NCBI GenBank assembly: GCA_017558005.1
Contig: JAFYWN010000028.1
Location: forward strand, 1 to 32,142
Reading direction: 5' to 3'
Source: Kiritimatiellia bacterium
Lineage (GTDB): Bacteria; Verrucomicrobiota; Kiritimatiellia; RFP12; DVOR01
Length of the DNA stretch: 32,142 bases
Shown here: one piece after another, positions 3,601 through 21,776 of the stretch
How positions within the stretch are numbered: position 1 is the stretch's first letter
How the letters are laid out: each line of letters opens with the position of its first letter
Program-made: the position numbers and the translations under genes
The notes under the pieces: model-generated
Told to the model about the DNA's origin: nothing
Databases searched by the model: none
What the model saw: only the letters and a program-made list of their open reading frames with translations

Positions 3601-3617
3601 TTTTTTGCTTTTTTTGA

Positions 3618-3671: not shown

Positions 3672-3679
3672 ATCTTTAT

Positions 3680-4291
3680 ATGAGAAGAACAAAGGAAGAA
3701 GCGCAGGAAACGCGCAAGTTAATTTTACAGACGGCGTTGGATTGTTTTTCAACGCAGGGCTATGCATTGACGACCTTTGCGGTGATTGCCGAACGAATCA
3801 AGATGACGAAGGGTGCGATTTTTTGGCACTTTGATTCGAAGGAACATCTCTTCGCAGAGGTGATTGCGTGGATGCATGAGCAGTACCAACCCCTCAAAGG
3901 GATTGATACCGCTGCGTCATTGGACGCAGTTAAGCAGTGTTTCATGGAGTGGGCGCACGAGATTTCACTGAATGAGAATCACCGTCGCTTCCTCAACTTC
4001 ATCATGAGTCGCGTGGAATGGAGTAAGGCATTAACGGAATCACTGAGCTCGCGCTTGGATGGGATGATGATTCAGGACCCATTCTTGGCATTGGAGGCGT
4101 GTATGGATCGCCTCAAGGCGAGCGGTGAGGTGACTTCTGATTTGTCGTCCACTTCAATCGCCGTGTTGTTTAGCGTAACCTTTTTTGGTGTTCATCGCGA
4201 GGCATTGTTGCGTGCGCGTGAAATTGATGTGCGGGAAACGCTTTCCCGTGGTTTGGATTTTGTTATTCAAGGAATTAGGAGTAAGGAATGA
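3680..4291 (+). CDS. TetR/AcrR family transcriptional repressor of the efflux operon
   Basis: A 203-residue protein with a classic N-terminal TetR DNA-binding domain, from ETRKLILQTALDCF through the recognition helix region MTKGAIFWHFDSKEHLF (about residues 11-60), and a divergent C-terminal ligand domain. I chose the ATG at 3680. The frame is open upstream to 3605, but the promoter's TATAAT lies at 3641-3646, so earlier starts would not be transcribed. No clear Shine-Dalgarno sequence precedes the ATG. The stop overlaps the next gene's start (ATGA at 4288-4291), so it is cotranscribed with the pump. It most likely represses the operon until a pump substrate binds, as AcrR and TtgR do. Confidence 0.93.
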   Translation: MRRTKEEAQETRKLILQTALDCFSTQGYALTTFAVIAERIKMTKGAIFWHFDSKEHLFAEVIAWMHEQYQPLKGIDTAASLDAVKQCFMEWAHEISLNENHRRFLNFIMSRVEWSKALTESLSSRLDGMMIQDPFLALEACMDRLKASGEVTSDLSSTSIAVLFSVTFFGVHREALLRAREIDVRETLSRGLDFVIQGIRSKE

Positions 4292-5544: not shown

Positions 5545-5555
5545 GGATTTTCCCA

Positions 5556-8500
5556 ATGGCCAATAAAGAACGTTCGATGAGCCTTGAGGAAATCGAGGCC
5601 AATGAGCGCAGAATCATTGAGGAGGCGGTGAAGGACCTGCCGAATCGTTCGATTCTGTCGCGCATCTTTGTGAATCGCCCCCGTTTGGCGTTTGTGATTG
5701 CCATTGTGATGACGCTGGTGGGCGTCATCGCATTGAAGACGTTGCCGATTGAACAGTATCCCGAAGTGGCTCCGCCGACCGTGCAGGTGAGTTGCTCGTA
5801 CCCTGGTGCGAATGCGACGGACCTCGCGAATACGGTTGCGATCCCGATTGAATCGGAAATCAACGGTGTGGAAGACATGCTCTACATGAGCGCGTCGTGT
5901 TCGGACAATGGTCGCTACTCTTTGACCATTACCTTCGCGGTGGGTTCTGACCGTGACATGAACATGGTGCGTGTGCAGAATCGTGTGGCGCGCGCCGAAC
6001 CGAAGTTGCCCGTGGAAGTCACCAAGCAGGGTGTTTCGGTGAGTTCGCGTTCGGAGTCCATGCTGGGCTTCTTGTCTTTCCGTTCGCCAGGTGGGCAGTT
6101 GACGAAGTTGCAGATTGCTGACTTCCTTTACTCGAATGTGCGTGATGCCTTGCTGCGTGTGCATGGTGTGGGTGGTGCAGACGTGCACGGCGCAAAGATC
6201 GCCATGCGTATCTGGTTGGACCCCGAACGCTTAGCTGCGCAGTCGATGGATGCGAAGGAGGTTATCGCGGCGATTGAATCGCAGAACCGCCAAGCAGCGT
6301 TGGGTTCTGTCGGTGCGTCTCCTGTGGCTGACCCGCGCATTAAAAATGTCTATAGCGTCGTGACGGATGGTCGTTTGGGTTCCGTAAAGGAATTCGAAGA
6401 GATTGTCGTGCGTACCGCTGAAGATGGCGGCTTGGTCCGCTTGAAGGATATCGCTCGCGTGGAAGTGGGCGAACAGAGCTACGGCAATACGGGCTTCTTC
6501 GATGGCGCAGCCTGCGTCTCGATGGGCTTGAACCAAACCCCTGGCACGAATGCAATTGATGCCGTGGACGCCGTGAAGGCGGAGTTGGAACGTCTCAAGC
6601 CGACCTTCCCGGGTGACTTGGAGTGCGTCTTCGCCTATGACGCCACGGAAGTGGTGCGTATGTCCATTAAGGAAATCGTCTCCACGTTGATCGAAACCTT
6701 CGTGCTCGTGGTGATCGTGTGCTTCATCTTCTTGCAGGATTTCCGCGCCACGCTCGTGCCGTTGTGCGCCATCCCCGTCTCGTTGATGTGTACCTTCGCC
6801 GCCCTCAAGGCCTTCGGCTTCTCCATCAATACCTTGACGCTCTTCGCCTTGGTGCTTGCAATTGGTTCCGTGGTGGACGATGCAATCGTGGTGGTGGAAC
6901 GTGTCCAGTACCACATGGATAAGAGTAAGTTGGATCGTAAGACCGCCACCTTGCTCACGATGTCCGAAGTGACCGGCGCTGTGATTGCGACGACCCTCGT
7001 GCTCTTGGCCATCTTCGTGCCGGTCGGCTTCATCGCAGGCATTACGGGCCGCATCTATTCGCAGTTCGCCGTTACGATGTCGGTGGCCATCTGCTTCTCC
7101 ACCGTGAATGCATTGACGCTATCCCCTGCGATTTGCGCCACGATTTTGGGCGTGCCGAAGGAACACAAAGCCTTCTGGGATCCCTTCACGTGGTTTAATG
7201 CGATCCTGAATTGGATGAAGCGTGGCTATGCCGCAATCTCAAAATTCTTCGCGGCGCGTCGCTTCTTGACCTTGCTCATCTTCTTGTTGACGGTGGCAGT
7301 CGCCTTGATTTGCCTTGAAAAGACGCCGACCTCCTTCTTGCCGGAAGAGGACCAGGGCGTGATCTTCGTCGACGTTTCGTTGCGTGAAGGTACGAACCGT
7401 TCCGTCACCGATAAGTTCATCCGCCGCGTGGAAGCGGAAGTTCGCCAAATCCCTGGCGTGAAGAGCGTGCTCTCCGTGGTGGGTTGGGCAATGGTTTCGG
7501 GTAACGCCGAAAACACGGGTATGTTGATTGTGGCCCTTGATACGTGGGCAAAGCGTCCCGCTCCCGAACAGGCTGCCCGCGCGATTCTCAACCAAATCAT
7601 GGCGCTTTCGGCGAATTTCCATGAAGGTAAGTTCCTCGCGATGTTGCCGCCCGCCATCCAGGGTCTCGGTGTGACCGGTGGTATGAGTATTCAGTTCCAG
7701 TCGCTCAATTCGACTGACCCCGAAGTGATCGAACGCAGCTTGCGCGGCTTCTTGGCCGAATTGAATAAGGCGCCTGAAATTGCTACGGCCTTCTCGCCGT
7801 ACACCTCTGGTACGCCGCACATCGACCTGAAGGTTGACCGTGTGAAGGCTGAGACTTACAAGGTACCTGTCTCCACCCTTTACTCCACGCTCCAGAGTTA
7901 CCTCGGCTCTTACTACGTGAACGATATCAATATCGGTACGCAGGTGAACCAGGTCGTGGTGCAGTCGGACTGGAAGGGTCGTGACACGATTGACGCCATC
8001 GGTCGCCTCTATGCGAAGAGCACCACCGGTGCGATGGTGCCCGTGAGCGCCATGGTGGAGACCTCCACGGTTGGTGGCACGCGCAACTACTCGCGTTACA
8101 ACCTCTTCCCCTCGGCGAAGATTACGGCCAATATTCAGAATGGTTATGCTTCGGGTCAGGCAATGGCCGCCGTGAAGCGTGTGGCACAGTCGACCATCTC
8201 GCGTGACTTCAATTTCGAATGGACAGACCTCTCCTTCCAGGAAGCTTCCACCGAAGGTCAGACGGTCATCCTCGTGATTGCAGCCTTCGTCTTCGGTTAC
8301 CTCTTCTTGGTGGCTCAGTATGAAAGCTGGACCTTGCCCTTGCCGGTGATGACCTCCATTGTGGTGGGTTGCGCAGGCGCATTGCTCGGCTTGATGTACT
8401 GGGGTCTCTCGCTCTCGATTTACGCTCAGTTGGGTCTCTTGCTCTTGGTCTCCTTGGCCGCAAAGAACGCCATCTTGATCGTTGAATTCGCCGCCACCCG

Positions 8501-8783
8501 CCGTGAACAGGGCCTCTCGATTATCGATGCCGCAGGTGAAGGTGCTGGTGAACGTCTGCGCGCCGTGCTCATGACCGCACTCACCTTCATTCTCGGTGTG
8601 CTCCCGATGGTGTACGCCACCGGTGCAGGTGCGGCAAGCCGTCAGCACATCGGTGTGACGGTGTACACGGGCATGCTCGTGGCCACCACGATGGGTCTCT
8701 TGATGATTCCCGCACTCTTCTCGCTCTTTGAGAAGATGCGCGAAGGCACGTATTCCCTTTTCGGTTCGTCTCATAAGAAGTAA
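5556..8783 (+). CDS. RND multidrug efflux transporter (AcrB/HAE-1 type)
   Basis: The 1075-residue protein is the proton-driven inner-membrane pump of the tripartite system. Family hallmarks include the first membrane segment followed by [17 protein letters not shown], and the paired Asp residues in TM4 ([16 protein letters not shown]). The essential Lys lies in TM10 ([14 protein letters not shown]), and there are two large periplasmic loops and about twelve membrane segments in all. An N-terminal cytoplasmic extension of about 30 charged residues ([16 protein letters not shown]) makes it somewhat longer than AcrB (1049 residues). The ATG at 5556 follows AAGGA. It sits between the adaptor and channel genes, so the three form a complete unit. 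Confidence 0.97.
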
Positions 8784-8795
8784 GGAGGAGACAAA

Positions 8796-10382
8796 GTGAA
8801 GAGCTCTCTTTTGACAGTAGGCGCACTCGTGATGTTGACTGGGTGCACCACAATCGGTGAAAAGTATGAAGAAAAGTCTGTGATGGATGTCCTCACAGAT
8901 GCCACGGTGGCCGCAGATACGCGCCCGGATGCGCTTCCTGTTGTGACGGCGGCGCCGGATGTGCGTGCGGATGCATGGTGGACGCGCTTCGGCGATGAAA
9001 CCTTGACGCGCTTGATCTCGAAGGCTTACACCGCCAATCATTCGCTCGCCATCGCCCGCGCCAATCTGCACGCCGCCCGTGCCGCATGGAAATACCAACG
9101 CGGCGCTCTCTTGCCGATGGTAAATGCAGGTGGCGATATCACCCGTAGCCGCACCTCGGATAATGGCCTCTCCGGTCGTAATCGTTACACGGACTACAAC
9201 CTTGCCGCTACGGCCCGTTGGGAGTTGGACCTCTTTGGTCGCCAGCAGAGCCTGATGGATGCCGCCGAGGCTCAGGCAGAGGCCACCGAAGCCGATTTGA
9301 AGGCGATGTGGGTCTCGATCTCCTCTGCAGTGGCAAATGCCTACCTCGAATTGCGCACCTTGCAGGGCCGCTTGATGGTGGCTGAGGATAACCTCAAGCT
9401 CCAACAAGACAACTACGACCTCCAGGCCGATCGCGCCGCAGGTGGTTTGTCCAATGAACTCGTGAAGAATCAGGCCGAGTATGACCTGCGTTCGACCGCT
9501 GCCACGATTCCGAGCTTGAAGGCTCAGATTGTGGCCATCGAAAATGCGCTCGCCATCCTCTGCGGCACGACGCCGGGCACCTTGCCCCCTGAAATCGTGG
9601 CGCCAGTCCGTGTGGTGACAGAAACGCCCGCGCCGTCTGCTGAGGGTGAAGAAAAATCCCTCCCCGCAGGTCTGCGTCCCACCGGCATCCCCCAACCCGA
9701 AGAGATCCGCTTGGATGTGGGCATCTCCGTGGAGGCCCTTCGCCGTCGTCCGGATGTGATCGCCTCCGAACGTCTCTTGAAGGCCGCCGTGGAGGAGTTG
9801 AATTACGCCAAGGCTGAGCGTTATCCTAACTTCTACATCACCGCCGCACTCGGCGTGGATTCGATCCACTTGAGCGACTTGTTGGACTGGGATAGCCACT
9901 TCTATCAGTTCGGTCCTGGCTTCTCGTTGCCCATCTTCCGTGGTGGTCAGATTGAGGCCAATATCGAAATGAAGACCGAAGCCCAACGCGCCGCCTTCGC
10001 CGCCTATGAGGAGACCGTCCTCATGGCCCTCAGCGATATCCGCACCGCTTACGCCGCCTACACCCAGGAGTTGGAACGTCTCTCCCAACTCCGCCGTGGT
10101 GTTCAGGCCGCCCAAGCCGCCTATGAAATCGCTTCCAATAAGTACAATGCAGGCCTCGGCGACTTCTTTGACGTCCTCGATGCCCAACGCAAACTCTTCA
10201 CCCTCGACGAAGCCCGCGTGATCAGCGAAGGTGAAATTGCCGCGAGCCAGGTCGCCCTCTATCAATCGCTCTGTGGCGGTTGGGCAGGGGAGGAAGCGCC
10301 CGAAATCGCCGAACAGCTCTTTGGCGTAAACGACGCCTCCGAGCCCTTGCTCAAGCCGATGGACGACCTCTCTACGAAGTAA
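8796..10382 (+). CDS. RND efflux outer membrane channel lipoprotein (NodT/OprM type)
   Basis: A 528-residue TolC-like channel of the NodT/OprM lipoprotein class. It starts with GTG at 8796, preceded by AAGGAGGAG. The signal peptide ends in a lipobox, MLTGC, giving acylated Cys near residue 16. The body shows the family layout of two repeated halves with long helices, for example ANHSLAIARANLHAARAAW and SVEALRRRPDVIASERLLKA, and a C-terminal helix around NAGLGDFFDVLDAQRKL. An insertion of about 35 residues rich in Pro and Glu (around 270-305) separates the halves and is longer than usual. It is the last gene of the operon and is followed by a strong terminator. Confidence 0.95.
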   Translation: MKSSLLTVGALVMLTGCTTIGEKYEEKSVMDVLTDATVAADTRPDALPVVTAAPDVRADAWWTRFGDETLTRLISKAYTANHSLAIARANLHAARAAWKYQRGALLPMVNAGGDITRSRTSDNGLSGRNRYTDYNLAATARWELDLFGRQQSLMDAAEAQAEATEADLKAMWVSISSAVANAYLELRTLQGRLMVAEDNLKLQQDNYDLQADRAAGGLSNELVKNQAEYDLRSTAATIPSLKAQIVAIENALAILCGTTPGTLPPEIVAPVRVVTETPAPSAEGEEKSLPAGLRPTGIPQPEEIRLDVGISVEALRRRPDVIASERLLKAAVEELNYAKAERYPNFYITAALGVDSIHLSDLLDWDSHFYQFGPGFSLPIFRGGQIEANIEMKTEAQRAAFAAYEETVLMALSDIRTAYAAYTQELERLSQLRRGVQAAQAAYEIASNKYNAGLGDFFDVLDAQRKLFTLDEARVISEGEIAASQVALYQSLCGGWAGEEAPEIAEQLFGVNDASEPLLKPMDDLSTK

Positions 10383-11549: not shown

Positions 11550-11555
11550 TATGAT
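11550..11555 (+). promoter_or_regulatory. -10 box upstream of RNA element copy 1
   Basis: TATGAT lies 20 nt before the conserved 40-nt RNA core. The -35 region (TTTCTT, 11527-11532, 17-nt spacer) is weak. The equivalent box before copy 2 is TATACT at 15450. Confidence 0.45.
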
Positions 11556-11570
11556 TTGAGAGTAGATTTC

Positions 11571-11660
11571 TCATGGCCAGTTGGTGAAACCTAGGAAATT
11601 TCAAGACTGTTAGGCTTTGAGGATTATCCCCTCTTGTTGGGGCATCCTTAATGTGTACTG
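11571..11660 (+). ncRNA. Unrecognised structured RNA element, copy 1 (leader of the GHKL-ATPase operon)
   Basis: The core 11576-11615 is identical over 40 of 40 nt to 15481-15520. The core can fold with CAGT (11578-11581) pairing ACTG (11606-11609) and TGAAA pairing TTTCA. The loop CCTA can pair with TAGG at the 3' side, a possible pseudoknot. A second hairpin follows: 11617-11624 pairs with 11644-11651 (8 bp), and CCCC (11628-11631) pairs with GGGG (11639-11642). It ends in the shared TGTGTAC (11652-11658). Hairpin sequence differs from copy 2 but pairing is kept (T-A here, C-G there). No open frame lies across it. I cannot match it to any RNA family I know. It could be a cis-regulatory leader or a separate small RNA. 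Confidence 0.7.
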
Positions 11661-11664
11661 TTTT

Positions 11665-11690
11665 ACGAACGTGATGAACGTGCGTGTTTT
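11665..11690 (+). terminator. Weak terminator-like hairpin before the GHKL-ATPase gene
   Basis: ACGAACGT pairs with ACGTGCGT around GATGA (7 bp and one A-G mismatch), followed by GTTTTAC. It sits between the RNA element and the start codon, like the stronger hairpin after copy 2. The U-tract is poor. Confidence 0.3.
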
Positions 11691-11705
11691 ACTTTGGAAT
11701 TTCCT

Positions 11706-13700
11706 ATGATGAATTTTGATGGCGCAAAGTGGATTGTGTCTCCTTCAGACAACAGCATTAAAGGCCTTAATGACTCTGGCATTGAGACTTTTAGAGGACA
11801 TCTTGTCCAGGCATTAGCACGTGAAATTTGCCAAAACTCTGTTGATGCTAGAAAAGATAGAACGAAGCCTGTGGTGGTAGAGTTTTCTGCGTTTAACACC
11901 TCTATTGACAACTTCCCAAATAATGAAGAATACAAGGAAGAGTTAATGAGGATTGAACACTTTTGGAAAATGCGTAAAAACGAACAAGTTGGCGCGTTTT
12001 TTGAAGAAACAATGCCCAAATTTAAAAAAAATCTTTCTTGGATACGTATTAGCGACTTTAATACCACGGGATTGACTGGAGTTTCACAAGCAGACAATCT
12101 TTGGGACGCTACAACTTGGAATTCTTTGGTAAGAGCCGATGGAGACTCCCAAAAGGATGGAATAGGATCATTTGGCATTGGTAAGAGTGCACCATTCTCG
12201 TGTTCTTATTTCCGCACGGTTTTCTATGCAACAAAGGCAACCTTTGAAAATAAGGTAGGTTTTTTAAGAACAGAAACGGTTGAAGAAGAGGGATTTATTG
12301 GTGTTGCCCGATTACTTGCTCGTCCTATTGGGCAAAATTCTAAAAATACACTAACTTCTGGTAAGATGTTTTTTGAAAAAGAGAATTGTCAAGTGTGCTC
12401 GCGATGCATTTCTCTTGATCCTGCGTTTAAGCGTGAGGAAACAGGTACAGACATCTATATTCCTGGATTTATTCCAATGTACAGGGGAAATGGATGGGTT
12501 GATGAAATTGTAGAGGCTGTCATAAACAGTTTTTTGTATGCCATCTATCAGGAAAATCTTATTGTAAAAATTAAAACCTCTGAGAAGAATATAACTTTAG
12601 ACAAGGCATATTTAGATGAAACTTATGGAAATAGTACTTTTTCTTCAAATGAAAAATTTAATTTTACCATTCAGCAAAAATATCAACTTTTAGCATCTCC
12701 TGATGTACATTCTGCACTGTTCAAATGGTCAGGATATGAGGGCTATGTTGATGTTCGCTTTTTGCTTGGTTCGCCAGATTATGACCGCCGTATTACGGTG
12801 GTGCGTGCGCCTGGGATGAAGATTTTTGACAAGGATCATATCTCTGGTAAAATCGCTTTTACAGGCATGGTAATCGTTTGTGGAGATGGGTTAAATAAGC
12901 TCTTTAAGAACCTTGAAAATCCAGCACATACGGAATGGGAGATAAATCGAAGCGTAGAAGGTGCGAAGGCGATGAAGGAGCTATTTGCTTTTTGCAAGGG
13001 CTTGCTTAAAAGTCTTGTAATGACGAATGTGACTGAGGAGATTGACTCTGGTCTTGGGGCAATTCTTCCACAAGAAGACGGAGATGGTTCAAAGCAAGAA
13101 ACAGATTCTATTACCCCAATTAGCCGAAGCATTGAGCGAGGGAAGTCTACGAAGCGAGGAAAGAATCCTCCCAAAGAAGATGAAGACGAGAACGAGGATG
13201 ATACTCCTGCTGGATACACACCAACTGACGAACCTGGTTCTGGTGGCGGAGAACATGGGAGTTCTAAGAGTAAAAATACGGAAAAGAAGAAGGATGGTTC
13301 TTTAGAGGGAGATCAAAACGGACCCAATGAAGGCGACAACACTGAACTTCAGGGCGAGGATGAAAAAACTCATTCGGGCAAGAAAAGTCTAATCAAAATA
13401 CTTCAGGAGCGGAGCTGTTGCATTGATCGTAAAGAAGGAAGGTATCGTTTTATTTTCACCCCTTCTAAAAATGTTAAAAATGCATCACTTACGCTGTATT
13501 CTGCTGCGGAAGCAGACTTCTATTATGCTCCACTGTGTTCAGCAAAAAATCACGAAACAGGAGAGGAATTAAAGGTAAACGTAGAAACAAGTTCAATTGA
13601 AGGATTAAAGCTTAAAAAGAAAAAACCCGTAGTACTTGAATTGACGTTTGATTATAGTGATTATCTTTCGTTGGAGGTTGAATGTTATGAACATAACTAA
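11706..13700 (+). CDS. GHKL (Hsp90/MutL-type) ATPase, probable defence or restriction component
   Basis: A 664-residue protein with all GHKL nucleotide-binding motifs: N-box REICQNSVDA (residues 39-48), G1 box ISDFNTTGL (115-123) with the key Asp, and G2 box GIGSFGIGKSA (152-162). A transducer-like region follows to about residue 430. Next comes an acidic/Lys-rich low-complexity linker (about 455-560), then a small C-terminal domain. Iyer, Abhiman and Aravind described GHKL (MutL/MORC-like) ATPases in prokaryotic restriction-modification clusters with C5 methylases, which fits this context. The start is uncertain: ATG at 11706 or 11709, or TTG at 11694. Shine-Dalgarno is poor (GGAA). The next gene overlaps by 14 nt. 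Confidence 0.85.
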   Translation: MMNFDGAKWIVSPSDNSIKGLNDSGIETFRGHLVQALAREICQNSVDARKDRTKPVVVEFSAFNTSIDNFPNNEEYKEELMRIEHFWKMRKNEQVGAFFEETMPKFKKNLSWIRISDFNTTGLTGVSQADNLWDATTWNSLVRADGDSQKDGIGSFGIGKSAPFSCSYFRTVFYATKATFENKVGFLRTETVEEEGFIGVARLLARPIGQNSKNTLTSGKMFFEKENCQVCSRCISLDPAFKREETGTDIYIPGFIPMYRGNGWVDEIVEAVINSFLYAIYQENLIVKIKTSEKNITLDKAYLDETYGNSTFSSNEKFNFTIQQKYQLLASPDVHSALFKWSGYEGYVDVRFLLGSPDYDRRITVVRAPGMKIFDKDHISGKIAFTGMVIVCGDGLNKLFKNLENPAHTEWEINRSVEGAKAMKELFAFCKGLLKSLVMTNVTEEIDSGLGAILPQEDGDGSKQETDSITPISRSIERGKSTKRGKNPPKEDEDENEDDTPAGYTPTDEPGSGGGEHGSSKSKNTEKKKDGSLEGDQNGPNEGDNTELQGEDEKTHSGKKSLIKILQERSCCIDRKEGRYRFIFTPSKNVKNASLTLYSAAEADFYYAPLCSAKNHETGEELKVNVETSSIEGLKLKKKKPVVLELTFDYSDYLSLEVECYEHN

Positions 13701-14610
13701 TCGACTTTATCCTTATCCTATTTTGTCGAAAACAAATGGGACTATTTTGGATAGTACTTTTGATGTTGTAGTTAAACCAAAGATTATTCAAGAGGGTCTA
13801 GTTATCACCTGTTCGGTTACGGCAACATTGAAGAATAAAGACTTAAAACAATTGGTGGAAAATGGGAATGCGGGAATTTTTGTTCACGTAGAATGTCCAA
13901 CCACAACATTTCGAGAGGTGTATCAGATTACTCCCGAAGAGTGTCGGAGTCTTAGTAATGAAACGCTTCAAGGCGAGACCGTGATTGAAATCTCCTCTGG
14001 GAAAATTTCTGGCAAAGTAGAAATCTGCCCGTTTATCATTGCCCGCAACGATTTTGTCTATTCAAATCAAAAGGCTGAAGCGTTCTATCAAGGGATGACG
14101 TTTGATATCGATGCAGGAGCAATCTTAGCAGAAGGGGTTCCTACTGATTTTAGGGTTAACATCGCGCGAACGCAATTGAAATCAACGAATTCAATTTTTG
14201 TAACCGTTCCGTCTACAGATGAGAAACAGACGGCAATGAACGTAGATTGTGAAAATAATCGAATTCGAATTTCAATGCCTCAAGCGATGTTTCAATGTTA
14301 TCAAGCAATGAAGACGTCTACAGCAAATGATTCAATGTTGTGGTCGCTCATCATTATTCCTGCGTTTGTGAGTACATTAGAGCAGGTTAAGCTTGCGCTG
14401 AAATATGAGACAGGAGTGTTTGGAGATTTTTCGCAATATTCTTGGTTTGCAAGTGTTAATAGAGCGTTAATTGAGAAGTTCGGCTTTGGATTGGATTCTG
14501 AGAAGTTTGTTCAGTCTGATACGGTAGAGCTGGCGTCTGTTCTCATTGGCAATCCGCTTGAGTCTGTTTTGAACGAATTAGTGCATGGAGAAGGGGAGGA
14601 TGAACAATGA
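13687..14610 (+). CDS. Uncharacterised protein encoded between the GHKL ATPase and a DUF6339-like gene
   Basis: A 307-residue protein starting at ATG 13687, which overlaps the ATPase gene's end; GGAGG lies 9 nt upstream. The N-terminal half (NRLYPYPILSKTNGTILDST and onward) is predicted to be mainly beta strands. The C-terminal half (about 190-300) is more helical and contains SMLWSLIIIPAFVSTLEQV. I recognise no catalytic motif. The YPYPILS-type opening reminds me of unnamed proteins found beside similar ATPases, so it is likely an obligate partner of the ATPase. It is also the most likely place for an undetected nuclease or substrate-recognition domain (inference). The stop overlaps the next start (ATGA, 14607-14610). 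Confidence 0.75.
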   Translation: MNITNRLYPYPILSKTNGTILDSTFDVVVKPKIIQEGLVITCSVTATLKNKDLKQLVENGNAGIFVHVECPTTTFREVYQITPEECRSLSNETLQGETVIEISSGKISGKVEICPFIIARNDFVYSNQKAEAFYQGMTFDIDAGAILAEGVPTDFRVNIARTQLKSTNSIFVTVPSTDEKQTAMNVDCENNRIRISMPQAMFQCYQAMKTSTANDSMLWSLIIIPAFVSTLEQVKLALKYETGVFGDFSQYSWFASVNRALIEKFGFGLDSEKFVQSDTVELASVLIGNPLESVLNELVHGEGEDEQ

Positions 14611-15383
14611 AAATCTACTTTTTAAAGGATATTGCACTTGAAACGTTAAAGGCAAATATTCAAATCTTTTTACCGTATTTTGCAGAAGAAACAAATACTT
14701 CTTTGATTAAGGCGTTGAAACAAACGCTTCAAGAAGTTGATGATCGTGCTATTTTTGAATATTCTGGCTACGATGTCCCAGACGGAATTGAACAAACGTT
14801 AATTGATAATTACAAAGCCTGTCGCAATGGTAAAGATGGAGATAATGCCTGTATTCTCTTTGATGCGCTAAAAAACCTTCCACCTACGGTTGCTTGTGAC
14901 GAACGCTTTTGGGCTGGCTTTACACTGTTATCTTGTTGGAACTTTGTGCGTGAACGTTGGGAAATGAAAAATGACAAGAGCAGAACTGTTAGTAATGTGG
15001 AAACGCATTTTTTCTTTAAAGACGGTATTCGTAGAGCAATAATACGTAATGCGTTGTCACGGTTATGGTGGATTGGTTACATAACATATCGCAGTGACCT
15101 TGATGACCCTTATATGTTTACTCGTGAACTTGGTAAAGAGTCAGACTATATTGGAAATCTATTTGAACGTTCATATTCAAATAGCCGAACTGTGGTTTTC
15201 GCGATTGTTGAAATGGTCGCAGAAATTTGCAAAGAGTATTCAATTAAATATAAGCGAGAGTGGGCTCGTCCTCTTTTAAAATACGTTAATATGCTTGGTG
15301 GGATTTACGTACTTGAAACGCTTCCACCACAGGTATTAAGACAAAAAATTAAAGCAAAAGCTGAAATATGTTTGAAAGGATAA
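14607..15383 (+). CDS. DUF6339-like protein, third gene of the GHKL-ATPase operon
   Basis: A 258-residue, mostly helical protein. The central segment with RLWWIGYITYRSDLDDPYMF followed by GNLFERSYSNSRTVVFAIVE resembles my recollection of DUF6339, an uncharacterised family; this is not verified. Conserved-looking Trp, Arg and Asp residues in that segment could be functional, but no known catalytic motif is visible. It starts at ATG 14607, overlapping the previous stop by 4 nt, so the three genes are probably translationally coupled and made in fixed ratio. A second copy of the structured RNA follows about 90 nt downstream. Confidence 0.7.
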   Translation: MKIYFLKDIALETLKANIQIFLPYFAEETNTSLIKALKQTLQEVDDRAIFEYSGYDVPDGIEQTLIDNYKACRNGKDGDNACILFDALKNLPPTVACDERFWAGFTLLSCWNFVRERWEMKNDKSRTVSNVETHFFFKDGIRRAIIRNALSRLWWIGYITYRSDLDDPYMFTRELGKESDYIGNLFERSYSNSRTVVFAIVEMVAEICKEYSIKYKREWARPLLKYVNMLGGIYVLETLPPQVLRQKIKAKAEICLKG

Positions 15384-15449
15384 CTCCTACTAAAATTGCT
15401 TTTCTTTGAAAACGGCGAGCCTTTAGCTGCACGGTTTGGTTACTTTTGT

Positions 15450-15455
15450 TATACT
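15450..15455 (+). promoter_or_regulatory. -10 box upstream of RNA element copy 2
   Basis: TATACT lies 25 nt before the conserved 40-nt core. No good -35 is present at 17 nt. Its position mirrors TATGAT before copy 1, so both RNA copies probably have their own promoter. Confidence 0.45.
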
Positions 15456-15472
15456 GAAACCATTAGTACAAC

Positions 15473-15573
15473 TCTCATATGCCAGTTGGTGAAACCTAGG
15501 AAATTTCAAGACTGTTAGGCATCGAGGGTTGGCCCCTTTTGTATCAATTTGGGGCCGCCTTGATGTGTACAGT
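15473..15573 (+). ncRNA. Unrecognised structured RNA element, copy 2 (leader of the methyltransferase gene)
   Basis: The core 15481-15520 is identical to copy 1. The following hairpin keeps the fold but not the sequence: TCGAGG (15522-15527) pairs with CCTTGA (15558-15563). One position is C-G where copy 1 has T-A. The inner stem is GGCCCC (15531-15536) with GGGGCC (15551-15556), two pairs longer than in copy 1, with a 14-nt loop. The conserved TGTGTAC follows (15564-15570). The identical core beside a compensated, divergent hairpin argues for a functional RNA rather than a simple DNA repeat. About 30 nt downstream lies a terminator-like hairpin directly before the methyltransferase start. 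Confidence 0.7.
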
Positions 15574-15604
15574 CAGGCTTCCTAGGGCCTCGCCATCACC
15601 TCTC

Positions 15605-15637
15605 AAGGCGCGCCCCTTTTATTGGAGCGCGCCTTTT
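15605..15637 (+). terminator. Terminator-like hairpin between RNA copy 2 and the methyltransferase start
   Basis: AAGGCGCGC (15605-15613) pairs with GCGCGCCTT (15627-15635) around a 13-nt loop, followed by a run of four T (15634-15637). Only 12 nt separate it from the ATG at 15650 and I see no promoter in between. It therefore either ends a separate small RNA or acts as an attenuator that must be bypassed to express the methyltransferase. Confidence 0.65.
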
Positions 15638-15649
15638 GCGTAGGGTTCA

Positions 15650-16891
15650 ATGGCTAAAAAAGAAATTTGTTTTAATTTGGGCGAATTATTTTGTGGACCA
15701 GGTGGAATGGCTATTGCTTCTACCATGGTAAGCTCCGTTTCTTCTAAAAAAGGGAAAAGGTTTTCGTTGTCGCACTCATGGGGTGTGGATTATTCTCACG
15801 CAGCTATTGAAACTTTTCGAGCGAATTTAGGCCGAGAAAATGGCTTCGAAATGGACGCGAATGAGTTTGTGGCTAATGAGTTGACCCCTGAACGTGCTAT
15901 TAATGCGCTTGCATTTGGATTTCCATGTAATAGTTTTAGTTCTGTTGGAAAAAGTAAGGGGTTAAAAGATTCTAAGTTTGGACAGTTGTATAAAGCTGGT
16001 ATTGGAGTATTAAATAAGTATAACCCGATTTGGTTCATTGCAGAAAATGTGAGTGGTATTTCAAAGATTGAAAAAGGTGGACAGTTTGCAAAAATTCTTC
16101 AAGAACTTGCAGATGCTGGGACGGGGTACAATGTTGTCGCACATTTGTATAAGTTTGAAGAATATGGAGTTCCGCAAGCTCGCCATCGTTATGTGATTGT
16201 CGGTATCCGTAAGGATATTGCAGAGAAAGAGAAGATAGAATTTCTCCCTCCAGCCCCGACACATGGACCAGGTCTTTTACCGTATGTAACAGTAGAAAAG
16301 GCGCTTTGTAACGTAAAAAATGAAACATCGTGGGGGCAAACTTTTACGCGACAATCTAAAAATGTTGTTTGGCGATTAAAGTTTACACCGCCAGGAGAAA
16401 ATGCATGGAAGTTGGATGAATTAGTAGATCCAACGGTTTACTCAGATGAAAAATTGATGGAGTATTTACAGAAATTGCCATGGTTTGATTCTGATATAAA
16501 ACAATTAGGGGATGTAGATGCTATTCGTCAAAAGATTGAAGAGTGTCGTTTGCATTGTAAAAGTGCACGCATGAGTCATATTTATCGTCGATTAAATCCT
16601 GACAAGCCCGCCTATACGCTAACAGGAAGTGGTGGCGGTGGAACACACATTTACCATTGGAAAGAACATCGCGCATTGACAAATGAAGAACGTGCAGCAC
16701 TACAAACGTTTCCTAAGGATTTTGTCTTTAAAGGCTCTTCAGAACAAATCCGTAAGCAAATCGGAATGGCCGTTCCAACAGAAGGCGCTAGAAAAATATT
16801 TGAAGCAATCCTTAAAACTTTTGCAAAAATTCCCTATGATACAGTATTGCCAAATCCAGAGTTGGTAATTAAACCGTCAAAAGAGAATTAA
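15650..16891 (+). CDS. C5-cytosine DNA methyltransferase
   Basis: A 413-residue protein that should transfer a methyl group from SAM to carbon 5 of cytosine in a specific DNA site. Ordered motifs: I ELFCGPGG (12-19); IV GFPCNSFSS with catalytic Cys93; VI ENV (132-134); VIII QARHR (176-180). A target-recognition region follows (about 200-320), then PAYTLTGSGGGG and a motif X of the form GMAVP instead of the usual GNAVP. The ATG at 15650 has only a weak ribosome binding site (TAGGG). No cognate restriction enzyme gene is obvious. The upstream ATPase operon, which carries the same RNA leader, is the natural partner candidate. A hairpin terminator follows at 16901. Confidence 0.95.
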   Translation: MAKKEICFNLGELFCGPGGMAIASTMVSSVSSKKGKRFSLSHSWGVDYSHAAIETFRANLGRENGFEMDANEFVANELTPERAINALAFGFPCNSFSSVGKSKGLKDSKFGQLYKAGIGVLNKYNPIWFIAENVSGISKIEKGGQFAKILQELADAGTGYNVVAHLYKFEEYGVPQARHRYVIVGIRKDIAEKEKIEFLPPAPTHGPGLLPYVTVEKALCNVKNETSWGQTFTRQSKNVVWRLKFTPPGENAWKLDELVDPTVYSDEKLMEYLQKLPWFDSDIKQLGDVDAIRQKIEECRLHCKSARMSHIYRRLNPDKPAYTLTGSGGGGTHIYHWKEHRALTNEERAALQTFPKDFVFKGSSEQIRKQIGMAVPTEGARKIFEAILKTFAKIPYDTVLPNPELVIKPSKEN

Positions 16892-16900
16892 TCCATTTTA

Positions 16901-16920
16901 CGCGCCTTCGGGCGCGTTTT
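16901..16920 (+). terminator. Terminator of the methyltransferase gene
   Basis: CGCGCC-TTCG-GGCGCG is followed by TTTT: a 6-bp stem with a stable TTCG loop. Confidence 0.8.
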
Positions 16921-16991
16921 ACATTTTTCTACCAGACATTGCACTTTCATCGCGTGGCCGTAGTTGTAGCCCATAGCCCGCGCCGCTTCGC

Positions 16992-17020
16992 TTGTCTTTA
17001 AAAGGTATGTTTGGTAGGAT
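16992..17020 (+). promoter_or_regulatory. Cassette-type promoter of the DUF262 gene
   Basis: TTGTCT, a 17-nt spacer, then TAGGAT. The 35 nt from 16991 differ from those before the Sel1 gene (21876-21910) at only one or two positions. The same boxes precede the small membrane protein gene at 22738. Confidence 0.7.
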
Positions 17021-17056
17021 AGTGGTATTCACTGGTTACAAGAAGGGTGAAGTAAG

Positions 17057-18874
17057 ATGAGTAATAGCATTGAAAAGTATTCGGTTAGTCAATATTCAGT
17101 AAGTTCGGTATTGAGTTTTATTGAGGCAGGGGAGATTGCGATTCCTGAAATTCAACGTCCGTTTGTTTGGAAGGGACGTCAGGTGCGTGATTTAATCGAT
17201 TCACTTTACAATGGATATCCAACGGGATATTTGATTATTTGGCAGAATCCAGATGTGAAGTTGAAGACAGGGGAAAGTGCTGTAGGCAAAAAGATTTTAA
17301 TTGATGGTCAGCAGCGTGTTACGGCATTGATGACATCAATTGGTGGTCATAAGGTACTAAATGAGAATTATGATCTTAAGCAGATTGCGATTGCCTTCAA
17401 TCCTTTAGCAAAGGATGATGAGGAACGTTTCGCGGTGCGGACACCCGCACATGAGAAGAGTTCTTTTTGGATTCCTGATATTTCGGTATTATTTAATCCC
17501 AAGTTTGATTCGTTTAGCTTTGTTTTAGGGTATGTGGAGAAGAATCCTGGTGTTACACCGCAGGAGGTGAATGAAGCAATTACACGTTTGAAGGGGATTC
17601 AAAATTGTCAGATAGGTGTGATTACTTTGGTGCCGCAGTTGGATATTAGTGAGGTTACTGAGATTTTTGTTCGCATCAATTCGCAGGGAAAGCGTTTGAA
17701 CGAAGCAGACTTTGCGATGTCAAAGATTGCGGCGGATGAGCAATTTGGTGGAAATCTTTTACGTAAGGCGATTGATTATTTCTGTCATTTAGCGGTGGAT
17801 CCAGCGTTTTATCATCAGTTGGCTGCAAAGGATGAAACGTTTATGCAGTCTGAATTTGCAAAGCGTTTGAAGTGGTTAAAGGATGATAATAGCAATATTT
17901 ATGACCCTGAGTATAGCGACATGCTTCGAGTGTCGTTTATGCATCAGTTTGGTAGAGGTAAGCTGGGAGATTTGGTGAGTTTGCTATCTGGGCGTGATTT
18001 TGCGGAGCGCACGTTTAAGGAAGATATTGCAAAGGAGAGTTTTGAAAAATTGTCTACTGGCGTGATGAACTTCATGAATCAGTATACGTTCGAGCAATTT
18101 GTTGTGGCGCTTCGTGGGGCTGGTTTTGTGCATCCAAGGCAATTGAATTCTCGAATGACATTAGATTTTGCCTATACACTTTATTTACTTTTAAATGAGA
18201 GTAATGAGATTAGCAAAATTCAAATCAAGCCATATGTCCAGAAGTGGTTTGTACTTTCTACCTTAACGGGACGTTACATCGGCTCGCCAGAATCGCAAAT
18301 GGATCGTGACTTAAGGGCAATCTCGGTGAAGGGTTTCTTGCCGTTCTTTAAGGAGGTGGAAGAGGCCGAACTTTCTCAGTCATTCTGGGATGTAGGCTTG
18401 GTGCAAAACTTGGAAACTTCTTCAATCTCAAGTCCTTATTTCAACACCTTTATTGCTGCACAGGTGCATGGAGGTGATCGTTCGTTGCTGTCAAATACGG
18501 TTAAAGTGGATGACTTACTTTCTGCAGGGGATGTACATCATATCTTCCCGAGAGAGTTCTTGAAAAAGAATGGTATTACGGACAAGTCGCTTTACAATCA
18601 AGTGGCGAATTACACTTATTTGGATACGGGGATTAATATTTCTATAGGTAAGCGTGCGCCTAGTGATTATTTTTCTGTCGCAAAGCAACAATGCGAGACT
18701 AAAGAAATCAAGATTGGAACAATTGTGGATGAAGAACAATTCCTTCAAAGTTTGGAAACGAATTGTATTCCTATGGAAATTTGTAATATGACTGCGGCGG
18801 ACTATTCCACCTTTTTACGAGAACGTCGCGTGAGAATGGCAAAGAAAATTAAAGCATATTACGAATCTCTATAA
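17057..18874 (+). CDS. DUF262 and HNH domain protein (GmrSD-like, predicted modification-dependent restriction)
   Basis: A 605-residue protein. The N-terminal DUF262 (GmrS/ParB-like) domain shows PEIQRPFVW (residues 30-38) and the nucleotide-binding motif KILIDGQQRVTALM (about 75-88). The C-terminal domain has a GmrSD/DUF1524-type His-Me finger: DVHHIFPREF (about 491-500) followed by NYTYLDTGIN and the IGKRAP turn. In this family NTP binding is coupled to cleavage of modified (for example glucosylated) phage DNA, or otherwise to antiphage defence. It is a single-gene unit with its own promoter and terminator. GAAGGGTGA precedes the ATG. It is likely an independent defence gene, not part of the upstream methyltransferase system. 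Confidence 0.92.
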   Translation: MSNSIEKYSVSQYSVSSVLSFIEAGEIAIPEIQRPFVWKGRQVRDLIDSLYNGYPTGYLIIWQNPDVKLKTGESAVGKKILIDGQQRVTALMTSIGGHKVLNENYDLKQIAIAFNPLAKDDEERFAVRTPAHEKSSFWIPDISVLFNPKFDSFSFVLGYVEKNPGVTPQEVNEAITRLKGIQNCQIGVITLVPQLDISEVTEIFVRINSQGKRLNEADFAMSKIAADEQFGGNLLRKAIDYFCHLAVDPAFYHQLAAKDETFMQSEFAKRLKWLKDDNSNIYDPEYSDMLRVSFMHQFGRGKLGDLVSLLSGRDFAERTFKEDIAKESFEKLSTGVMNFMNQYTFEQFVVALRGAGFVHPRQLNSRMTLDFAYTLYLLLNESNEISKIQIKPYVQKWFVLSTLTGRYIGSPESQMDRDLRAISVKGFLPFFKEVEEAELSQSFWDVGLVQNLETSSISSPYFNTFIAAQVHGGDRSLLSNTVKVDDLLSAGDVHHIFPREFLKKNGITDKSLYNQVANYTYLDTGINISIGKRAPSDYFSVAKQQCETKEIKIGTIVDEEQFLQSLETNCIPMEICNMTAADYSTFLRERRVRMAKKIKAYYESL

Positions 18875-18890
18875 TTCCCTCCACTTTTAC

Positions 18891-18913
18891 GCGCCTCACC
18901 CGAGGCGCTTTTT
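18891..18913 (+). terminator. Terminator of the DUF262 gene
   Basis: GCGCCTC-ACCC-GAGGCGC is followed by TTTTT. The same stem sequence ends the next three genes. Confidence 0.88.
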
Positions 18914-18921
18914 GTTTCATT

Positions 18922-18951
18922 TTGTGGTTTCGGGGTTAATTTTGATAGGAT
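18922..18951 (+). promoter_or_regulatory. Cassette-type promoter of the NERD gene
   Basis: TTGTGG, an 18-nt spacer, then TAGGAT followed by AGGG, related to the promoters at 16992, 21877 and 22738. Confidence 0.6.
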
Positions 18952-18987
18952 AGGGATGGTAAAGGAATTACTATTTGAAGTGATGGT

Positions 18988-19647
18988 ATGAGCTTTATAA
19001 CTTGCTTTAATTTGGTGCTTTGTCCGATCGCATTGCTACTTGTGGCCGCATGTCTTTGGTTGCGGACGAAACATGCTAAGGGTGTTTTGGGTGAGTTCGC
19101 AGGGAAACTTGCTGTAAAACAGTGGTTGCCTGAGTCGGGATATGAACTCTTCTCAGATGTAATGTTGCAGGATAAGCGTGGCACAACGCAAATCGATCAT
19201 GTGGTGGTGTCACGGTTTGGCATCTTTGTGATTGAGGCAAAGGGTATTTCGGGAAAGTTGTATGCTTCCAGTGAGACGAAGTATCGTACATGGAAGGTCT
19301 ATCGAAATGGACGTGGATACACGTTCCAGAATCCGTATTTGCAGAATTATCGTCATCGGTGTGCATTATCAGAAGTGCTTGATGTGCCATTAGATGCATT
19401 ACATGATGTTATCTTTTTCCCACACGAGGATTTGGTGCTTGCCACTCCTGAAAAGGTGGCAGCGAGTTTTGTCACGGGCAGACGAAAATTGGCCGAGTAT
19501 ATCCTTTCATTTAAGGAACAACGTTTTACCGCTGAAGAGGTCGCACGTTTAGCCGCCATTCTAAATTTGAAGCGAATGGAAAATTCGCATGAAAATAAGA
19601 AAAAGCATACGGCAGACCTAAAAGCACGTTGGGAAAAGAAATCTTAA
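18988..19647 (+). CDS. Membrane-anchored NERD (nuclease-related) domain protein
   Basis: A 219-residue protein. An N-terminal hydrophobic segment (residues 5-25, LVLCPIALLLVAACLW) should anchor it in the inner membrane. A NERD domain follows: GEFAGKLAVKQWLP (helix), LQDKRGTTQIDHVVVSRFGI with the Asp of the predicted active site, VIEAKGISGKLY with the Glu-x-Lys pair, and the conserved NPYLQN element. NERD is related to PD-(D/E)XK nucleases and often accompanies DNA-processing or defence genes. The ATG at 18988 is chosen to include the anchor; an ATG at 18983 is in another frame. No strong Shine-Dalgarno is present. The gene has its own promoter and terminator. Confidence 0.88.
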   Translation: MSFITCFNLVLCPIALLLVAACLWLRTKHAKGVLGEFAGKLAVKQWLPESGYELFSDVMLQDKRGTTQIDHVVVSRFGIFVIEAKGISGKLYASSETKYRTWKVYRNGRGYTFQNPYLQNYRHRCALSEVLDVPLDALHDVIFFPHEDLVLATPEKVAASFVTGRRKLAEYILSFKEQRFTAEEVARLAAILNLKRMENSHENKKKHTADLKARWEKKS

Positions 19648-19661
19648 CTACCCCTTTCCAC

Positions 19662-19690
19662 GCGCCTCAACCGAGGCGCTTTTGTTTTTT
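19662..19690 (+). terminator. Terminator of the NERD gene
   Basis: GCGCCTC-AACC-GAGGCGC is followed by TTTTGTTTTTT, the same stem as at 18891. The T-tract overlaps the -35 box of the next gene's promoter. Confidence 0.9.
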
Positions 19691-19709
19691 ATGGGTAGAT
19701 GTCTATAAT
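19682..19709 (+). promoter_or_regulatory. Promoter of the PLD-ATPase gene
   Basis: TTGTTT (19682-19687), a 16-nt spacer and a perfect TATAAT (19704-19709). It overlaps the U-tract of the preceding terminator, so spacing between the units is minimal. Confidence 0.65.
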
Positions 19710-19778
19710 TGTGGTAGACTATTAGTATTGGTAGTTGGATTTACATCTCTGCGTATTTGTGTGAAAAAGGAGGGGATG

Positions 19779-21776
19779 ATGGAAAACTTGGATCTCTTTG
19801 GCGAGAATAGTGAAAACTTTAACACTTGCGGTGTTAAATTAGATGTCGTCAAGTTAGAGTATCTTTCGTCAGAGTCTCTTACGTGGCAGGAGCTTTTTTC
19901 GGGGTATAATCGAATCAAGGCGATTACGTTTTCGTCTGGGATTGGTTTTGTAGGTGACTTGCTAAAACTCTTTGATGACGCAGAGATTATCTTTGGGTGT
20001 GAACACGTCATTTCAAATACTTTTCAAGAGGTGCTTGCTTATCAAGCAAAACTGTTGGAGCGTATTCGTGAAGGCTCTTCTGTAACGCAACAATATTTGA
20101 TTGAACGAGTAGAACGGGAAAGTTTGCGTTTATGGGTTTCTCGTCAGCAAGTGTCTCATGAAAAGATTTACCTTTTAGAGTCTGATGATGGGAAACGTCG
20201 TGTCGTAATGGGTTCTGCAAATCTTTCATTGAATGCGTTCGGAGGGCGCCAACGTGAAAATATTACGTATATGGACGGTGATCGTGCATATGAACGTTAT
20301 TTAGAGATATTTGAAACATTGAAAGAAAGTTCTTCTGACCGTATTACAAAAAGTGCACTTCTTTCAGCGAATATTACAGACCAGTTGGATAATCTTCCTA
20401 TTGCAGAAACAATTCGGGTGCAAAAGGCTATTTATTTAGAGGCGCCATCGCAAGATGAAAAGTCTGATGTCAAATTTATTTTAGATACGCATCAACTCGC
20501 AAAGAAGATCGCACCGTCTATTTCAATCTCAAAAGAACAAAAGAAATCGGGGCGTATCTTAGTTTCCGCAGATGTGATTCAGAAAGTTAAGCGGCAACGA
20601 ATTCGCGAGGAGGAGAAGGAACGCGAGGTTCGGAGTGAATATCCACAGTTGGGAATTGATGCAGAACAAGGTCTTGTTTTTCTCAATGATAAGATGCTTG
20701 ATTTGAATCCTTCTGAACAGAAGGTAAAAGAGGATATTGACCTTTTTGTGATGTATATGTCGGGATATAGTGGATTCCATGGCGATGCGCAGGGGATGCA
20801 AGTGCACTACTATGAATTCGCAAACTGGTTTTTTGCGTCACCGTTTATGGCTGTCATGCGTAATACTGCTTTGCGTTATGACCAAAAAACGCTTCCTTAT
20901 CCTGTTTTCGGGCTTGTGTATGGTCAATCAAAAGCGGGTAAAACGTCATTCCTTGAAACATTGCTCAAGATGATGATTGGGCAAAAAATTAAAGTCAGTG
21001 CACCTGATTTTACACGAACAACCGTTGACGGATTACGTCGAACGGTTCAAGGTGCTCCAATTATTGTGGATGACTTGACTAATACGCGTTTCAATCAGCA
21101 TGCAATTGAAACGATTAAAAACGATGATTTTGGATATGCCGAAGATTTGTTGAATTATCCTGCGGTAGTGATTAGTGCAAATGAAGACGTGAAGGCGGTG
21201 GCGCCTGAAGTGACGCGTCGAACAGTAATTTGCCGTGTTCAAGCTGGGTTGACGAATACTGAAGTGATGCGAAGTAATCTTGTTCGCTCTGTGCAACAGA
21301 AAATAGGAACGGCTTTTTATCGCACCTATTTGCGTGAAATGTTGAAGGTTCTTCCAGACTTAACGGAGCAACTGAAAGATGACAATCCTGAGTCTGAAGC
21401 TCCTGACATTCTTAAGGTGTCTGCTGAAATTTTGTATAACCTTTTCTCAAAATATTTAGATGATGTGCCACATTACATTCGATTGTTGTCATTAGATAAT
21501 TACTTTAGTGAAAAGGTGACGGGTCGCCACACATTACAAGTCATTCGTGAGGCATGGCAAACGACGCCTGAGGCCTTTGTTGTTAGCACAAAAAAGAATA
21601 TTTTACGATATGATGCTGGAGATAACTGGGATGCAGACCGCCTTATGAAGGAGTTGCCAGAAACGCTTTGCGCTCGTCGTACTCGAAACACGATTGTAAT
21701 GGATTTAGATGCGGCTAAAGAGTTTTTTGAGATAGATTTTAAACAGCGTTCGTTGTTAATGCGTCTTTTAAAGTAA
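19779..21776 (+). CDS. Phospholipase-D-like nuclease domain fused to a P-loop ATPase, predicted defence protein
   Basis: A 665-residue protein. The N-terminal part (about 1-190) ends in a PLD-type half-site: HEKIYLL, then GSANLS about 15 residues on, as in phospholipase-D nucleases such as BfiI and Nuc. A charged linker follows (about 265-300). The C-terminal half carries Walker A GQSKAGKTSF, Walker B APIIVDDLTN, and a sensor/arginine stretch VVISANEDV...TRRTV reminiscent of AAA/SF3 ATPases. The frame is open back to 19629, but the promoter and the strong AGGAGG at 19768-19773 favour ATG 19779 (ATG 19776 is next to it). I infer ATP-driven DNA sensing or cutting. The HKD motif is slightly divergent, with Glu where Asp is usual. 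Confidence 0.85.
   Translation: MENLDLFGENSENFNTCGVKLDVVKLEYLSSESLTWQELFSGYNRIKAITFSSGIGFVGDLLKLFDDAEIIFGCEHVISNTFQEVLAYQAKLLERIREGSSVTQQYLIERVERESLRLWVSRQQVSHEKIYLLESDDGKRRVVMGSANLSLNAFGGRQRENITYMDGDRAYERYLEIFETLKESSSDRITKSALLSANITDQLDNLPIAETIRVQKAIYLEAPSQDEKSDVKFILDTHQLAKKIAPSISISKEQKKSGRILVSADVIQKVKRQRIREEEKEREVRSEYPQLGIDAEQGLVFLNDKMLDLNPSEQKVKEDIDLFVMYMSGYSGFHGDAQGMQVHYYEFANWFFASPFMAVMRNTALRYDQKTLPYPVFGLVYGQSKAGKTSFLETLLKMMIGQKIKVSAPDFTRTTVDGLRRTVQGAPIIVDDLTNTRFNQHAIETIKNDDFGYAEDLLNYPAVVISANEDVKAVAPEVTRRTVICRVQAGLTNTEVMRSNLVRSVQQKIGTAFYRTYLREMLKVLPDLTEQLKDDNPESEAPDILKVSAEILYNLFSKYLDDVPHYIRLLSLDNYFSEKVTGRHTLQVIREAWQTTPEAFVVSTKKNILRYDAGDNWDADRLMKELPETLCARRTRNTIVMDLDAAKEFFEIDFKQRSLLMRLLK

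Follow-up and report, generated by a model that had tools for sequence, protein, structure and literature searches.

A widespread 5′-leader RNA family of Kiritimatiellae and Bacteroidota with the predicted features of a riboswitch-like transcription attenuator

In this study, we analysed a structured RNA that occurs twice in a 32,142-nt stretch of DNA (contig JAFYWN010000028.1; this whole stretch is called the window) from a Kiritimatiellia bacterium, whose genome comprises 2.05 Mb in 37 contigs. Copy 1 precedes the PDC-M33A gene and copy 2 a C-5 cytosine DNA methyltransferase gene. An earlier note on this DNA had pointed out both copies as an unrecognised structured RNA, and much of its local description could be reproduced: the cores, at 11576-11615 and 15481-15520, share the same 40-nt sequence without a single difference, folding of both copies confirmed that the subsequent hairpins differ in sequence with pairing kept, and TATxxT boxes lie upstream of both. 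The genes behind the two copies are located as follows.

11706..13700, + strand: PDC-M33A gene, downstream of copy 1 (start codon of our choice; the longest open reading frame runs from 11694)
13648..15383, + strand: PDC-M33B and PDC-M33C genes
15650..16891, + strand: C-5 cytosine DNA methyltransferase gene, downstream of copy 2

Copy 2, spanning about 15478-15623, is a complete member of the family described here, in which paired strands are labelled a and b and the downstream segment is called EP.

15450..15455, + strand: -10-like box TATACT, 25 nt 5′ of the core
15479..15483, + strand: P0a, ATGCC, partner of P0b in the predicted OFF state
15487..15491, + strand: P1a, TGGTG, partner 15591-15595
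15491..15507, + strand: conserved GAAA ... TTTC around P2a, possible hairpin HpA, without covariation
15495..15501, + strand: P2a, CCTAGGA, partner 15580-15586
15510..15515, + strand: P3a, partner 15569-15574
15518..15522, + strand: P0b, GGCAT
15521..15536, + strand: P4a, 5′ arm of the apical hairpin
15551..15564, + strand: P4b, 3′ arm of the apical hairpin, complementary also to 15603-15616
15569..15574, + strand: P3b
15575..15590, + strand: conserved AGGC ... GCCT around P2b, possible hairpin HpB
15580..15586, + strand: P2b, TCCTAGG
15591..15595, + strand: P1b, CGCCA
15603..15623, + strand: EP, TCAAGGCGCGCCCC, then TTTTATT; predicted terminator 3′ arm and U-tract
15624..15635, + strand: GGAGCGCGCCTT, second complement of EP, local hairpin

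This map changes the outline of the element. TGTGTAC, taken in the earlier note as the end of both copies, does follow both hairpins, but copy 2 continues beyond it with P3b, P2b and P1b (15569-15595) and with EP and the U-tract (15603-15623). Among the pairings suggested for the core, CAGT/ACTG is retained as part of P0, which is supported family-wide, but a CCTA/TAGG pseudoknot within the core is not, since CCTAGGA (15495-15501) pairs with TCCTAGG (15580-15586).

Homologues were collected in several rounds. By blastn, two close relatives were found in genomes of the same genus besides the two copies of the window, plus two short partial matches (five of 95 genomes including the window's own). 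A covariance model, R1, built from copy 2 and the four sequences found by blastn, was matched 133 times (E<=1) within the genus, in 14 of its 17 genomes, with 27 matches in G001, the highest count and in a genome of 1.7 Mb, 26 in G005, 16 in G016 and four in the genome of the window. A DNA pattern with 22 fixed bases returned at least 114 stretches from a collection of species genomes; the 80 of them listed presumably belong to Bacteroidota or Kiritimatiellae/Verrucomicrobia/Lentisphaerae, bar two "uncultured bacterium" records, and all 80 were matched by R1 (81 matches). A second model, R2, of 78 sequences, was run on the window's phylum (as delimited in the genome collection, equivalent to GTDB Verrucomicrobiota and wider than the NCBI phylum Kiritimatiellota), where 50 of 288 genomes had matches, on the phylum to which Niabella belongs, where 31 of 296 genomes had matches and copy numbers are lower bounds with 10-11 candidates scored per genome at most, and on nine genomes picked as carriers, all of which had matches, with 1-11 copies each; E-values of R1 and R2 are rough, both models having been calibrated briefly. 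The covariance-model search proposed in the earlier note has thus yielded further homologues in Kiritimatiellae, in the wider phylum and in Bacteroidota. From 264 places, 257 remained besides copy 1, and removal of 10 duplicates brought the set to 247 distinct copies. All but two of these (one each in L053 and L256) were parsed, 106 from the Kiritimatiellae genus, 28 from other members of the phylum and 111 from Bacteroidota, 245 in total. As an aside, L043, L045, L049, L025, L010, L011 and L097 lie no more than ~300 nt from the end of a contig, as would be expected if the assembly tended to break at the RNA or near it.

The core of the family consists of a covarying, variable P1, a 7-bp P2, a variable P3, conserved internal loops and the apical hairpin P4. 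RNAalifold yields P1 and P2 from a MAFFT alignment of 78 sequences that was built without structure. In this alignment 98.8% of cells pair, compared to 71.4% in shuffles, and both sides are changed in 327 cells, where shuffling gives 90.7 and sliding the partners 23-53; for five P1 pairs, both sides are changed in 41-51 of the 78 sequences with pairing kept. The search pattern had fixed some P2 positions and none of the variable P1 positions. Among the 245 parsed copies, where the parse takes the best-pairing register, P1 pairs are kept in 236-245, where base composition would predict 96-113 for five pairs and 228 for the sixth, a G-C pair beside the loop, and the pairs of P2 are kept in 242-245. 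The outcome for P1 and P2 is unchanged in the 219 less similar copies, and in copies detected by the model only, P2 variants not covered by the pattern retain pairing as judged by eye. The helix P0 crosses P1, and its strands match those of the same copy better than those of other copies (p=3e-8 in Kiritimatiellae, 2e-4 in the rest of the phylum and 5e-25 in Bacteroidota).

We propose a model with two competing folds. With P1-P2-P3-P4 formed (ON), EP would stay single-stranded and RNA polymerase would read on; if EP takes P4b from P4a (OFF), a long hairpin followed by a U-tract would arise and transcription would stop, and the 5′ half of the RNA could then adopt P0. An apparent Shine-Dalgarno sequence would also be covered by EP in many Kiritimatiellae copies, and translation thereby blocked too. 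A ligand or protein would set the balance between ON and OFF, as the near-invariant loops suggest, and copy 2 would in this manner control the cytosine methyltransferase of the window.

The complementarity on which this model depends was examined by comparing the sequence enclosed by P2a and P2b with the ~62 nt that follow P1b. Mean duplex energies for matched and mismatched partners are -50.9 and -40.9 in the 106 Kiritimatiellae copies (p=6e-28), -44.6 and -37.6 in the 28 copies from the rest of the phylum (p=4e-6) and -36.0 and -30.3 in the 111 Bacteroidota copies (p=4e-18), with a similar matched signal between EP and P4 in the 219 less similar copies. In the duplexes inspected, the strand that pairs with EP is mostly the 3′ arm of P4 plus the linker to P3b. 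A U-tract follows EP in 77/106, 17/28 and 86/110 copies (same order of groups, as below), compared to at most 14/101, 4/28 and 31/111 in five control windows. The P4b:EP stem was forced in the 85, 20 and 95 copies that have a T-run and a sufficiently long upstream sequence; its median length is 21, 18.5 and 19 bp, and it ends within 3 nt of the U-tract in 82/85, 18/20 and 89/95 copies, in a test whose EP window ended at the T-run, which bounds the position of the stem end without forcing it. Among seven inspected OFF folds, several show P0 or a hairpin with P2a or P2b inside it. Copy 2 itself folds with z = -6.2 relative to dinucleotide shuffles, and its two competing folds reach -65.6 and -62.4.

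Position and orientation fit a 5′ leader. Of the 106 copies in the Kiritimatiellae genus, 74 have a -10-like TAT..T box ~70-75 nt upstream of P2a (controls 3-5 of 100-103). The motif TAn(2-4)TTTG is the Bacteroidota-type promoter motif, and in Bacteroidota a box of this kind is found ~60 nt before P2a in 62/111 copies (controls 5-17 of 97-111). The nearest downstream open reading frame is on the same strand for 98 of 105 Bacteroidota copies (six more have none) and for 19 of 21 copies from the rest of the phylum (seven more have none). A search for start codons, on the same strand only and within 170 nt, was successful in 106 of 107 Kiritimatiellae copies; 60 of the codons lie 22-31 nt and 31 lie 53-83 nt after P1b, and 15 elsewhere, and for copy 1 the distance is 54 nt.

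Copy 2 is thus a member of a widespread 5′-leader RNA family that, in our estimation, probably acts as a two-state transcription attenuator. An alternative hairpin with a U-tract, as in attenuators, is present in the sequences, and so, as far as sequence can tell, is the combination typical of riboswitches, a conserved structured 5′-leader domain with a competing expression platform. We regard the family as a new riboswitch-like transcription attenuator class. The sequences demonstrate its structure, position and orientation, the complementarity of EP and the U-tract, plus promoter-like boxes in two of the groups; termination, read-through with P1-P4 and sensing by the conserved loops are predicted. 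The suggestion of a new structured cis-regulatory RNA in the earlier note is supported by covariation, position, orientation and the lack of an Rfam family at threshold.

Copy 1 is a diverged copy with the following features.

11550..11555, + strand: -10-like box TATGAT, 20 nt 5′ of the core
11576..11653, + strand: copy 1, with the P0a-P1a-P2a-P3a-P0b core (11576-11615) of copy 2, then a different P4 hairpin
11698..11706, + strand: AATTTCCTA at the PDC-M33A start, complement of the core segment TAGGAAATT at 11592-11600

Over 11576-11706 this copy keeps the 5′ half of the element and is without most of the 3′ half. Its fold has z = -3.4 relative to dinucleotide shuffles, and it scores E 3.7e-7 with R1 and, barely, E 2.87 with R2. 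Its core would be able to pair with the start region of PDC-M33A; this 9-nt complementarity, which belongs to the predicted fold, is equalled by 38 of 5000 shuffles. Copy 1 may have degenerated, or may represent a translational variant.

Several observations weigh against the attenuator reading. By inspection, copy 1 is without P3b, P1b and EP, and the EP of copy 2 is also part of a second, local hairpin. A U-tract was not found in the tested window of 29/106, 11/28 and 24/110 copies. The OFF fold lies above the ON fold by a median of 0.8, 9.0 and 4.3 kcal/mol and is the lower one in just 38/85, 2/20 and 14/95 copies, so that OFF would often need kinetics or a ligand. In other members of the phylum a looser TA...T box is found in 15/28 copies, a weak excess over controls (5-7 of 25-27), and in the Kiritimatiellae genus the nearest open reading frame is on the same strand in just 62/94 cases (12 copies have none), as judged with a simple caller that picks GC-rich antisense frames. 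P3, a stem of mostly 5-12 bp and in few copies 3-4 bp, comes from a best-stem search without shuffled control. The TGAAA/TTTCA stem of the earlier note, HpA, is conserved but does not covary, and HpB is supported in Bacteroidota only, and both hairpins therefore stand outside our claim. A 5′ leader segment had seemed, on visual inspection, to pair well with P4a or EP; this pairing gave no matched signal and was rejected.

The genes behind the RNA are diverse. In the genome of the window, the four copies precede the cytosine methyltransferase (copy 2), PDC-M33A (copy 1), a methyltransferase-like protein at L104 (best PADLOC E 2e-8, without Pfam match) and a protein at L105 that by eye resembles a membrane O-acyltransferase. 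For the Kiritimatiellae genus, Pfam was run on 86 of 94 non-redundant downstream proteins, after eight doubtful frames had been dropped by hand, and gave surface and secreted families (PEP-CTERM 22, acyltransferase 10, GtrA 5, glycosyltransferase group 1 4) as well as DNA-related ones (EcoRI-type methylase 4, cytosine methylase 3, N6 methylase 3, Mrr/ResIII 3). For Bacteroidota and the rest of the phylum, 93 of 116 proteins (23 dropped by hand) gave TonB plug 7, EcoRI methylase 5, N6_Mtase 5, MmeI methylase 5, Eco57I 4 and HsdM_N 3, and PADLOC found type I, II and IIG methyltransferases among these groups. With 17 seed proteins from the downstream sets, phmmer related 21/94 and 27/116 downstream proteins to DNA methyltransferases, restriction enzymes or PDC-M33A (16 and 15 after removal of self-matches), compared to none of the 204 nearest upstream proteins. 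The methyltransferase-like motif [NDS]PP[YFW] occurs downstream in 13/116 and 10/94 proteins and upstream in 1/102, and of the 100 Pfam families obtained for 93 upstream neighbours, the 25 listed include no DNA methylase.

Two groups of short proteins were also seen behind the RNA. A large Kiritimatiellae family of small secreted proteins (MKKTLLTAAFAALAL...), to which the PEP-CTERM matches in 22 of 86 proteins refer, follows it at L088, L091, L095, L100, L107, L108, L111, L114 and others, with a gap to the start codon of ~80 nt instead of ~27. In Niabella, short proteins alike by eye stand behind L128, L158, L247, L255, L257 and L270, the one at L128 being without a Pfam or PADLOC match.

The earlier note had assigned the RNA to the defence system of the PDC-M33 genes, an assignment that is not supported. 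Copies precede many unrelated genes in two bacterial groups, and the proteins behind other copies belong to other families, so the RNA is no constant part of that system. At E<=1e-10, PDC-M33A was found in just five of 194 genomes of the phylum, with the window's own as the one strong match and four weak relatives that lie outside the check for the RNA. The family is not tied to the PDC-M33 defence system. In the window, the PDC-M33ABC, cytosine methyltransferase, GmrSD-like, NERD and PLD-type nuclease genes follow one another in a dense defence cluster (11694-21776, + strand), and an efflux operon with a TetR regulator, an HlyD-type adaptor, an AcrB-type pump and an OEP outer-membrane gene lies beside the defence genes at 3605-10382.

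An unlikely but serious alternative to transcription attenuation is a switch at the level of translation or one that works without ligand, in which the RNA mainly masks the site of ribosome binding, or adopts one of two near-equal folds at random and thus produces noisy expression. The start codons at 22-31 nt after P1b in 60/106 Kiritimatiellae copies, which let EP cover the position of the ribosome site (Shine-Dalgarno by eye), the median ON/OFF gap of just 0.8 kcal/mol in this genus and the frequent phase variation of glycan, restriction and surface genes are all in its favour. Against it stand the U-tracts after EP in all three groups, the larger energy gaps in the other two groups and the near-invariant loop nucleotides, which suggest recognition. 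The terminator-like end of most copies would suit a small RNA that acts in trans, terminates at the U-tract and is near these genes by chance. We consider this improbable in view of the same-strand downstream genes (98/105 and 19/21), the start codon close after EP in Kiritimatiellae and the relatives of DNA methyltransferases downstream and not upstream.

Polysaccharide operons are classic targets of RfaH- and LoaP-type factors, so that the RNA might be a site for a specialised NusG paralogue (RfaH, UpxY or LoaP type) in processive antitermination of long accessory operons. This explanation is very improbable overall and such a role is unlikely in the genus, where 15 of 17 genomes, including the carriers of 26 and 27 copies, have a single NusG-domain gene each, and no NusG was found in the other two, which are 84% and 50% complete; with one NusG per genome, a specialised paralogue was rejected there. 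Up to 27 matches per genome could finally be read as a dispersed DNA repeat or a recombination site of a mobile element, a reading to which we give hardly any credence. It is largely refuted by covariation, and the scatter of an ordinary repeat, considered in the earlier note, is not the picture obtained: copies covary, match their own EP and mostly have their own promoter-like box. Exact 32-mer and pattern scans gave no match in viral contigs, and plasmid, phage and E. coli sequences searched by blastn gave none for copy 2.

The attenuator family was compared to known RNA classes. No Rfam 15 family matched the element at gathering threshold or E<1 in the window and 46 loci (tests of the window, of the window with 9 loci in E-value mode, of 18 loci at gathering threshold and of 19 loci in E-value mode). 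Matches far below threshold that touch or adjoin the element, sroD at L071 (E 1.4, 25 of 50 bits) and Ref64 at L012 (E 8.9), were taken as chance; an rteR small RNA (Rfam RF04181, L316:10-92) lies ~1.4 kb from one copy. Novelty is claimed relative to the families of Rfam 15, with some motifs of the 2010 survey that are absent from Rfam, e.g. GUCCY-hairpin, outside this comparison. In transcriptional riboswitches such as the purine and SAM-I classes, an internal helix exchanges a strand with an intrinsic terminator. The present family resembles them as a 5′ leader with a conserved structured domain and a predicted strand exchange with a terminator, but differs in having no Rfam match at threshold and many copies per genome before unrelated genes. 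Cyclic di-GMP (GEMM) riboswitches occur in many copies per genome before surface genes, as this family does, but it has no Rfam family at threshold and none of the 17 genomes of the genus has a GGDEF gene. With GGDEF in 0/17 genomes and matches in 8/14 control genomes, cyclic di-GMP was rejected as the signal and is unlikely to serve as such in the genus. Cyclic di-AMP (ydaO) appears disfavoured as a general signal because three copy-bearing genomes (G096, G101 and G102 with 8, 11 and 3 copies) are without a DAC domain, which is found in 17 of 20 genomes. JUMPstart/ops, EAR (epsC RNA) and LoaP leaders precede polysaccharide operons, and the family is like them a leader RNA before such operons, but unlike them it has no Rfam family at threshold and no NusG paralogue in the genus. 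Control of restriction-modification is known mainly via DNA-binding proteins. The family would share with C-protein and RptR the regulation of restriction-modification genes, but here the regulator would be an RNA leader.

JUMPstart and epsC are listed in the motif table of PMC2864571, and the C-protein and RptR regulators of restriction-modification genes are DNA-binding proteins (PMC6237814, PMC12255303). No description of the element was found in passages of PMC11109978, PMC8632094, PMC2864571, PMC6429828, PMC9723704 and PMC12255303, or in the titles and starts of abstracts searched, which leave aside most subscription papers and all bioRxiv preprints, so that an earlier report is possible.

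As a tentative extension, the riboswitch-like class of Bacteroidota and the Kiritimatiellae phylum could sense one signal and co-activate genes for DNA modification and restriction, surface sugars and secreted proteins. The class is common, compact and two-state, which makes direct testing and a standard search for ligand or partner feasible. If the extension is true, one RNA signal would set defence and surface identity in two bacterial groups, through a "coat and defence" regulon under RNA control, in which a genome has as many as 27 leaders.

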